Source of the DNA: Candidatus Cloacimonadota bacterium
GTDB taxonomy: Bacteria; Cloacimonadota; Cloacimonadia; JGIOTU-2; B8-G9
Reading direction: 5' to 3'
DNA length: 6,528 bases
NCBI GenBank assembly: GCA_003647765.1
Contig: QMNM01000087.1
Location: 1 to 6,528, forward strand
The notes below the pieces were generated by a model that saw only the letters and a program-made list of their open reading frames with translations, did no database searches and had not been told where the DNA came from. The position numbers were made by a program, and so were the translations under genes. This document shows positions 1,990-4,604 of the stretch, piece by piece. Within the stretch, counting starts at the first letter, position 1, and each line of letters opens with the position of its first letter.

Positions 1990-3207
1990 ATGAAAAAGAA
2001 ACATATTTTTATTACTGGCGGAGTTGTCTCTTCATTAGGAAAAGGCATTGCTTCTGCTTCTATTGGCTTATTACTAAAAAGAATCGGATACAATGTTATT
2101 ATTCAAAAACTTGACCCTTACTTGAATGTTGACCCAGGAACAATGAATCCTTTTCAACATGGTGAAGTATTTGTTACAGATGACGGTGCAGAGACAGATT
2201 TAGATTTAGGCCATTACGAGAGATTCTTATGCCAATCATTGACAAAAGATAGCAATAGCACAACAGGACAGATCTATCGCACTGTTATAGAAAAGGAACG
2301 AAGAGGCGATTATTTAGGAAAGACAGTGCAGGTTATTCCTCATATTATTGACGAAATAAAAAGAAGGATAAGATTATTAGATAAAAAAGCTGACATTATT
2401 ATTACAGAGATTGGCGGCACTGTTGGTGATATTGAAAGTTTGCCATTTTTAGAAGCAATCAGACAATATCGCTTGGATATAGGCAAAGAAAATACTTTGT
2501 TTATTCATCTTGCATTAGTGCCTTATATAAAAACAGCAGGAGAATCTAAAACAAAGCCGATTCAACATAGCGTCCATAAATTAAGAGAAATCGGTATTCA
2601 ACCAGACATTTTACTATGTAGAGCCGCAAGAAAAATAACCAAAGAGATGCGTCAAAAGATTGCTCTATTTACTAATGTGCCTGCTGAAAATGTGATTGAT
2701 GCCCAAGATGTGCCTTGTGTATATCAAGTCCCTATTAACTTTTATCTTAATAGATTACCAAAGATTATCTCTCAATACTTTCACTTAGATTATAAAGAGA
2801 TTGATTTATCCGATTGGCAAGAAGTTGTAAATAGATATAATAATCCCAAAAAACAGGTCAGCATTGCTCTTTGTGGCAAATATGTTCGTCATCAAGATGC
2901 ATATAAAAGTATAATTGAATCCTTGATACACAGTGGTATTTATCATTGGACAAAGGTGAACATTAAATATATTGATACTGATAGAATCTTTCATAATTTT
3001 GAAAAGTCCGACTTTTCCAGTTATGAAGATTTTTTGAAACACAAATTAAATGATGTTGACGGAATTTTAGTACCTGGTGGTTTTGGTGTAAGGGGTATAG
3101 AAGGTAAAATTCAGATTATTAAGCATTCCCGTGAGAATAATATTCCTTTCTTTGGTATATGTTTAGGAATGCAATGTGCAATTATTGAATTTGCTCGCAA
3201 TGTATAA
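1990..3207 (+). CDS. pyrG: CTP synthase, synthetase domain and first part of glutaminase domain; ends at a premature in-frame TAA
   Basis: CTP synthase (EC 6.3.4.2) makes CTP from UTP, ATP and glutamine-derived ammonia in the cytoplasm. The start is fixed by AGGAG at 1981-1985, four bases before the ATG, and by an N-terminus that lines up with E. coli PyrG almost residue for residue. Visible motifs are the ATP-binding GGVVSSLGKG (10-19), KLDPYLNVDPGTMNPFQHGE (40-59), DDGAETDLDLGHYERF (64-79) with the magnesium ligand D72, EIGGTVGDIESLPF (140-153) with E140, and KTKPIQHSV (187-195). The class I glutaminase domain begins after about residue 290, with PGGFGVRG forming the oxyanion region and GICLGMQ carrying the nucleophile Cys391. 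After residue 405 (FARNV) the frame meets TAA, although CTP synthases run to about 535-550 residues. Homology resumes at once in the same frame, as [11 protein letters not shown], through to 3693, so 1990-3693 is really one gene of 567 codon positions before its final TAG. Either the stop is a sequence error, or the protein made is a truncated form that may depend on free ammonia. Confidence 0.95.
   Translation: MKKKHIFITGGVVSSLGKGIASASIGLLLKRIGYNVIIQKLDPYLNVDPGTMNPFQHGEVFVTDDGAETDLDLGHYERFLCQSLTKDSNSTTGQIYRTVIEKERRGDYLGKTVQVIPHIIDEIKRRIRLLDKKADIIITEIGGTVGDIESLPFLEAIRQYRLDIGKENTLFIHLALVPYIKTAGESKTKPIQHSVHKLREIGIQPDILLCRAARKITKEMRQKIALFTNVPAENVIDAQDVPCVYQVPINFYLNRLPKIISQYFHLDYKEIDLSDWQEVVNRYNNPKKQVSIALCGKYVRHQDAYKSIIESLIHSGIYHWTKVNIKYIDTDRIFHNFEKSDFSSYEDFLKHKLNDVDGILVPGGFGVRGIEGKIQIIKHSRENNIPFFGICLGMQCAIIEFARNV
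3205..3207 (+). other. Premature in-frame TAA inside pyrG (codon 406)
   Basis: The codon lies between AATGTA and CATCTG in the pyrG frame and falls between ARNV and [13 protein letters not shown] synthases have a variable small or hydrophobic residue here (Ala in E. coli, often Leu elsewhere, from memory). One T-to-A change from TTA (Leu) would create it. No frame change is involved, and no other stop lies in the frame between 1990 and the final TAG at 3691-3693. Confidence 0.95.
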
Positions 3208-3267
3208 CATCTGGAACATGCTAATAGCATAGAATTTGATGCACAAACAAAATATCCTGTAATTGAT

Positions 3268-3693
3268 TTGATGATTGAGCAAAAACATATAAGACACATT
3301 GGTGGCACAATGCGTCTCGGTGCTTATACTTGTCTATTAGCAAAAAATTCATTCGCAGAAAGAATCTATTTGTCTAATGATCAAATTGATAAAGACAATC
3401 TTGTAAGAATTGAGAAAACAAAAGATGGTTTATTGATAAAAGAGAGACATCGTCATAGATATGAATTTAATAATAAATATAGAGATAAATTTGCAGAAAA
3501 GGGGATGAGATTTTCAGGTATCTATCCAAAAGATAATCTGGTAGAAATAATAGAATTAACAGACCATCCATTCTTTATCGGTGTACAGTTCCATCCAGAA
3601 TTTAAGTCATATCCGACTAAACCACAACCTATATTTAGAGAATTTATAAAAAGTGCTTTAATATATCAGAATGAACGGAAAAATAAAGAATAG
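3268..3693 (+). pseudogene. pyrG: C-terminal part of CTP synthase glutaminase domain, downstream of the in-frame stop
   Basis: This stretch continues the pyrG frame. Homology actually begins at 3208, directly after the TAA; 3268 (TTG), 3271 (ATG) and 3310 (ATG, with GGTGG four bases before it) are only possible restart codons. It carries the rest of the class I glutaminase domain: [19 protein letters not shown] and GVQFHPEF, whose His and Glu (residues 535 and 537 in full-length numbering) complete the catalytic triad with Cys391 in the upstream part. None of these restarts has a strong Shine-Dalgarno, so independent translation is doubtful. All conserved motifs are intact, so any inactivation must be recent, or the stop is an error. 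It ends with a lysine- and glutamate-rich tail at a TAG. Confidence 0.85.
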
Positions 3694-3800: not shown

Positions 3801-4604
3801 ATGAACTTACAAATAAATAAAGAACATTTCACAATTATTGCAGGTCCTTGTGCGGCTGAATCAAAAGAATTATGTTTGGAAATTGCTAAAGAAATGAATG
3901 CAATGTGTAATAGATACAATTTCCAATATGTTTTCAAAGCTTCATACAAAAAGGCAAATCGCTCTTCTGGAATTTCATATCGTGGTCCTGGACTTAAAAA
4001 GGGCTTACAATTCTTGTCCGCAGTAAAAGAGGAACTTGGCATCCCAATATTGACTGATGTTCATTGTCAAACAGAAATAAAGCGTGTGGCGCAAGTAGCT
4101 GACATATTACAGATTCCGGCATTTTTATGTAGGCAAACTGAACTGATTGAAGCATCTGCAAATACAGGCAAAATAATCAATATAAAAAAAGGACAGTTTC
4201 TTGCTCCGGAAGATATGAAATTAGCAATGCAAAAGGTATTCAATACTGGAAATGATAAAGTGCTAATCACGGAACGAGGAACTTGTTTTGGGTATCATAA
4301 TTTAGTTGTGGATTTTCGTGGACTGCAAATAATGGATGGTTATAATATTCCGATTATTTTTGATGTAACGCATAGTATTCAGAGACCGTCAAGCGGAGGC
4401 GAACAAACAGGAGGAAATCCCGAATTTATAGAGACATTGACAAGAGCAGCTGTTGCAACAGGGCATCTGTCTGGACTGTTTATTGAAACCCATCCAGAAC
4501 CAAAGAAAGCCAAAAGTGATGCATTGTCTATGCTTCCTCTATCACAAATGAATGGATTACTTAAAAAGATTAAAATTATATTGGAATGTGTTAGGAAATT
4601 ATGA
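3801..4604 (+). CDS. kdsA: 3-deoxy-8-phosphooctulonate (Kdo-8-phosphate) synthase, metal-dependent type
   Basis: KdsA (EC 2.5.1.55) condenses phosphoenolpyruvate with arabinose-5-phosphate to give Kdo-8-phosphate, the precursor of the Kdo sugars that join lipid A to the LPS core. It works in the cytoplasm as a (beta/alpha)8 barrel. The 267 residues span the normal family length. Motifs are AGPCAAES (14-21), FKASYKKANRSS (45-56), SYRGPGLKKG (59-68), PILTDVH (82-88), PAFLCRQT (106-113), TERGTCFGYHNLVVD (157-171), IFDVTHSIQRP (186-196) and FIETHPEP (227-234). Cys17, His191, Glu229 and Asp240 correspond to the metal ligands of the Aquifex enzyme (Cys11, His185, Glu222, Asp233), so this is the metal-requiring class rather than the E. 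coli type, which has Asn in place of the Cys. A weak GGA (3792-3794) precedes the ATG. The stop overlaps the lptC start by four bases, which implies coupled translation of the LPS genes. Confidence 0.96.
   Translation: MNLQINKEHFTIIAGPCAAESKELCLEIAKEMNAMCNRYNFQYVFKASYKKANRSSGISYRGPGLKKGLQFLSAVKEELGIPILTDVHCQTEIKRVAQVADILQIPAFLCRQTELIEASANTGKIINIKKGQFLAPEDMKLAMQKVFNTGNDKVLITERGTCFGYHNLVVDFRGLQIMDGYNIPIIFDVTHSIQRPSSGGEQTGGNPEFIETLTRAAVATGHLSGLFIETHPEPKKAKSDALSMLPLSQMNGLLKKIKIILECVRKL

Follow-up and report, generated by a model that had tools for sequence, protein, structure and literature searches.

The pyrG gene in the DNA analysed here is interrupted by an in-frame TAA, for which an error in the consensus or a recent mutation is the most likely origin, rather than a new mechanism. 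The whole stretch of 6,528 nucleotides, referred to as the window, is contig C113 of the draft metagenome-assembled genome G000 (1.97 Mb in 360 contigs, 88.8% complete). We propose that this pyrG, which encodes CTP synthase, is the normal, vertically inherited and apparently single-copy gene of an uncultured bacterium, that the TAA lies a single, isolated base change away from a sense codon, and that it most likely entered the consensus of this fragmented draft as an error or as a minority strain variant. To this reading, in which we infer a wrong or rare base at codon 406, we assign a probability of about 0.65.

The frame opens with an ATG at 1990 and closes with a TAG at 3691-3693 (Table 1), and does not run as a single uninterrupted frame because of the TAA at codon 406. 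The initial annotation had placed the stop at this codon, and we confirmed that it is in frame with the ATG and that CTP synthase homology lies on either side of it. The translation upstream of the stop matches the CTP_synth_N profile at 413 bits over 265 of 265 positions, while the GATase profile (PF00117) is split at the stop, with positions 4-93 before it and 95-189 after it. Alignments obtained with tblastn cross the stop in all full-length relatives retrieved, and the codons that follow are approximately 60% identical to the order relatives; with 161 open codons, this homology goes far beyond chance. The Cys-His-Glu triad of the class I GATase is present, in two pieces split by the stop. 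It had also been claimed that the cut falls between the nucleophile Cys391 and the His535/Glu537 pair, leaving the synthetase domain whole, and both points hold: all three residues are present with the stop between their codons, and CTP_synth_N occupies residues 4-266 of the 405 that the truncated protein retains.

Table 1 Coordinates of pyrG and associated features in the window.
Feature	Position	Strand	Details
pyrG (CTP synthase) frame	1990..3693	+	567 codons ahead of terminal TAG, internal TAA read over
Open 5' part of pyrG	1990..3204	+	405 codons; complete synthetase domain and first GATase half; CTP_synth_N 4-266, GATase 303-405 (protein)
Codon of nucleophile Cys391 (TGT)	3160..3162	+	From alignment to CTP synthases
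In-frame TAA, pyrG codon 406	3205..3207	+	
Open 3' part of pyrG	3208..3690	+	161 codons after the TAA; second GATase half; profile positions 95-189
In-frame 18-codon insertion in pyrG	about 3382-3435	+	Directly before ERHRHRYE motif
Codon of His535	3592-3594	+	
Codon of Glu537	3598-3600	+	
kdsA (KDO-8-phosphate synthase; DAHP_synth_1 family)	3801..4604	+	Pfam PF00793

The gene had further been described as aligning on both sides of the stop without a gap or frame change. Homology and frame were borne out, but the absence of gaps was not, as an insertion lies 60 codons downstream of the TAA. The stretch that bears it is 47 residues long in G000 and 29-30 residues long in 109 other pyrG genes, and the insertion is absent from 109/109 of these. 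It shows that pyrG of G000 carries some real lineage-specific change, which counts against a reading of plain error.

In order to assess divergence we performed a relative-rate comparison, in which identity to six outgroups was compared between G000 and twelve order relatives. Identity was 0.658 in the synthetase domain (relatives, 0.62-0.63), 0.599 in the part of the GATase that precedes the stop (0.54-0.59) and 0.549 in the part that follows it (0.50-0.57), so that no clear acceleration of divergence after the stop was found in G000 relative to these twelve genomes. This indicates that the stop is recent, that it is absent from the real genome, or that the downstream part is still translated. 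A decaying pseudogene was rejected, since the stop is the only lesion of pyrG in G000 and post-stop identity to the outgroups falls within the range of the relatives.

A comparison with related genomes, which the initial annotation had proposed as a check, returned a sense codon at the position of codon 406, Leu in most order relatives, Met in one and Phe in one; Cys is the most frequent residue in more distant relatives, ahead of Leu and Ala. Two order relatives, among the loci read at codon level, use TTA at this position, a Leu codon from which TAA is one substitution away. No stop was present at this position in the relatives retrieved, for which the nearest level of comparison is the order, since no second member of the family was among the genomes that the searches returned. 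Only one gene with CTP_synth_N was found in the G000 assembly, where contigs of approximately 2.5 kb (read as N) were possibly outside the search. The possibility that this copy is a plain pseudogene beside an intact one is thus not supported, no second pyrG having been found in the assembly. In other genomes of the phylum pyrG is intact, with few exceptions. Its neighbours in the window are kdsA and two LPS transport genes (LptC and LptA/LptD families), and the order pyrG-kdsA is common to G000 and to the order relative G009, whose locus (L013) was read by eye; the presence of kdsA after pyrG in G009 as well marks this as the ordinary pyrG locus. A pattern scan of viral contigs for wider copies gave no match, and the literature searched for interrupted pyrG genes and for stop codons in draft genomes offered nothing directly relevant.

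We also searched G000 for other interrupted genes. A codon-usage scan covered 81 sequences (693 kb, of which 67 kb are N, leaving approximately 0.63 Mb) and ranked pairs of open reading frames lying in the same frame; among the pairs listed, inspection by eye left two in which a conserved gene is clearly interrupted, namely pyrG and hutH. The second case is an in-frame TAA in a single-copy hutH-like gene (PF00221; L239:2468-2470, minus strand, G000:C71), directly after the ASGDLAP motif, at a position where most relatives have Ser, again one substitution away. A homology scan of G000 with the open reading frames of the relative G002, over approximately 65,000 aligned residues, found the pyrG stop as the sole stop; it gave no frameshift-like breaks, and a frameshift-rich assembly was accordingly rejected. 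A single substitution in this coding sequence yields a stop in 5.3% of cases, so that two stops correspond to approximately 37 substitutions, or 7.8e-5 changes per base, an error rate that we judge plausible for a draft genome as fragmented as this one.

Both in-frame TAAs are directly followed by CAT (positions 3205-3210 of the window; L239:2465-2470, minus strand); of 191 ordinary TAA stops in G000, not one precedes this codon. The chance that two sites share the next codon is approximately 3% (sum of squared codon frequencies), which makes the shared CAT weak evidence and a curiosity.

The initial annotation had favoured a sequence error or a recent nonsense mutation, and the evidence favours the same two explanations, the stop being a one-step change in a gene with no other lesion. 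A genuine recent nonsense mutation, which would leave either a truncated PyrG lacking a working glutaminase in a cell that relies on salvage, or a deleterious minority variant, ranks second and is in our view unlikely. The lack of any further lesion and the unaccelerated divergence after the stop are what a recent event would be expected to leave, and hutH bears the same kind of lesion. However, the mutation would strike the sole pyrG found in the genome, a gene kept across the phylum with the few exceptions mentioned above, and CTP synthase is described as essential (PMC4126345).

Readthrough or suppression, in which an amino acid would be inserted at the UAA and a full-length PyrG produced, is improbable. 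The downstream half of the gene appears constrained, and the CAT that follows both in-frame TAAs could be taken as a shared context. The complement of release factors might also be seen as favourable: one release factor gene was found in G000, read as RF2 from its sequence, and the assembly yielded no RF1, despite TAG ending 74 of 288 terminated open reading frames longer than 250 codons. Nevertheless, a single release factor gene is likewise seen in several further drafts from the order, so that the missing RF1 is put down to incompleteness, and RF2 also reads UAA. No stop anticodon, UUA included, was present among the 35 tRNAs found in G000, a set which also lacks tRNA-Gln and tRNA-Ile and is therefore incomplete. 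Furthermore, no stimulatory RNA structure was found after the stop, where the sequence folds less well than its shuffles (z +1.76), the stop is absent from relatives, and TAA is the commonest terminator in the genome (159 of the 288 open reading frames, the remaining 55 ending in TGA).

Another proposal was that the 405-residue product could itself be a functional, ammonia-dependent CTP synthase, supporting growth in an ammonia-rich habitat, which we regard as highly improbable. The family biochemistry behind this proposal stands: exogenous NH3 is a usable substrate for CTP synthase (PMC9138612), and there are structures in which the synthetase domain forms a chain of its own (2vo1, 3ihl), so that a truncated enzyme is biochemically possible. 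Support from the sequence did not follow, as the post-stop half diverges no faster than in relatives. The stop lies inside the GATase fold and would leave approximately 100 residues of a half-domain; moreover, the downstream half has its catalytic residues and normal conservation, both of which relaxed selection would erode in time.

We give hardly any credence to the idea that UAA-CAU might be a leaky, lineage-specific readthrough context yielding full-length enzymes from the interrupted pyrG and hutH. A lineage-specific change of TAA from stop to sense, suggested by two in-frame TAAs in conserved genes, has next to no likelihood and was ruled out by terminator usage, as the 159 open reading frames ended by TAA mark it as an ordinary stop in a standard code, in-frame TAA is very rare in conserved genes, and the two sites would need different residues, Leu and Ser.

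An in-frame TGA occupies the codon of the catalytic Cys in the pyrG of G009 (L013:1768-1770, G009:C178; GI-*-LGMQ), and thus pyrG interruptions in draft genomes are not unique to G000. In G009 a tRNA-Sec over the cut-off and selB were found on the same contig, and selenocysteine forms have been reported for a PyrG-related glutamine amidotransferase (motif GxUxG, PMC13188914; COG0504 PyrG, PMC12013277). Judging from these features, the G009 gene may possibly encode a full-length selenocysteine-containing CTP synthase. A sequence error is equally possible, because the hairpin that follows the TGA also folds in the genus mate G003, and G003, like the remaining genus mates read, has TGT at this codon. 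For the pyrG TAA of G000 selenocysteine was rejected, as it is inapplicable to TAA and neither tRNA-Sec nor selB was found over the cut-off in this genome.

The gene resembles bacterial PyrG proteins (PF06418 and PF00117) in its complete domain order, its catalytic Cys, His and Glu residues and its usual neighbour kdsA, and differs from them in the stop at codon 406 and in the insertion before ERHRHRYE. With nonsense-interrupted genes of draft metagenome-assembled genomes it shares an isolated stop, one substitution away from sense, in a gene that is otherwise intact, hutH being a second case; it departs from these in that the gene struck belongs to the core set and is apparently single-copy. 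A parallel with programmed stop-codon readthrough is that conserved coding sequence runs on past the stop, whereas pyrG of G000 has neither a stimulatory structure nor a stop conserved in relatives.

On present evidence, the pyrG stop serves mainly to show that a lone stop in a core gene of a draft genome calls for read support ahead of interpretation. If the stop in pyrG were both real and tolerated, it would mean that a free-living bacterium either bypasses the UAA of a core enzyme by readthrough or has no need of the glutaminase half of the protein for CTP synthesis.
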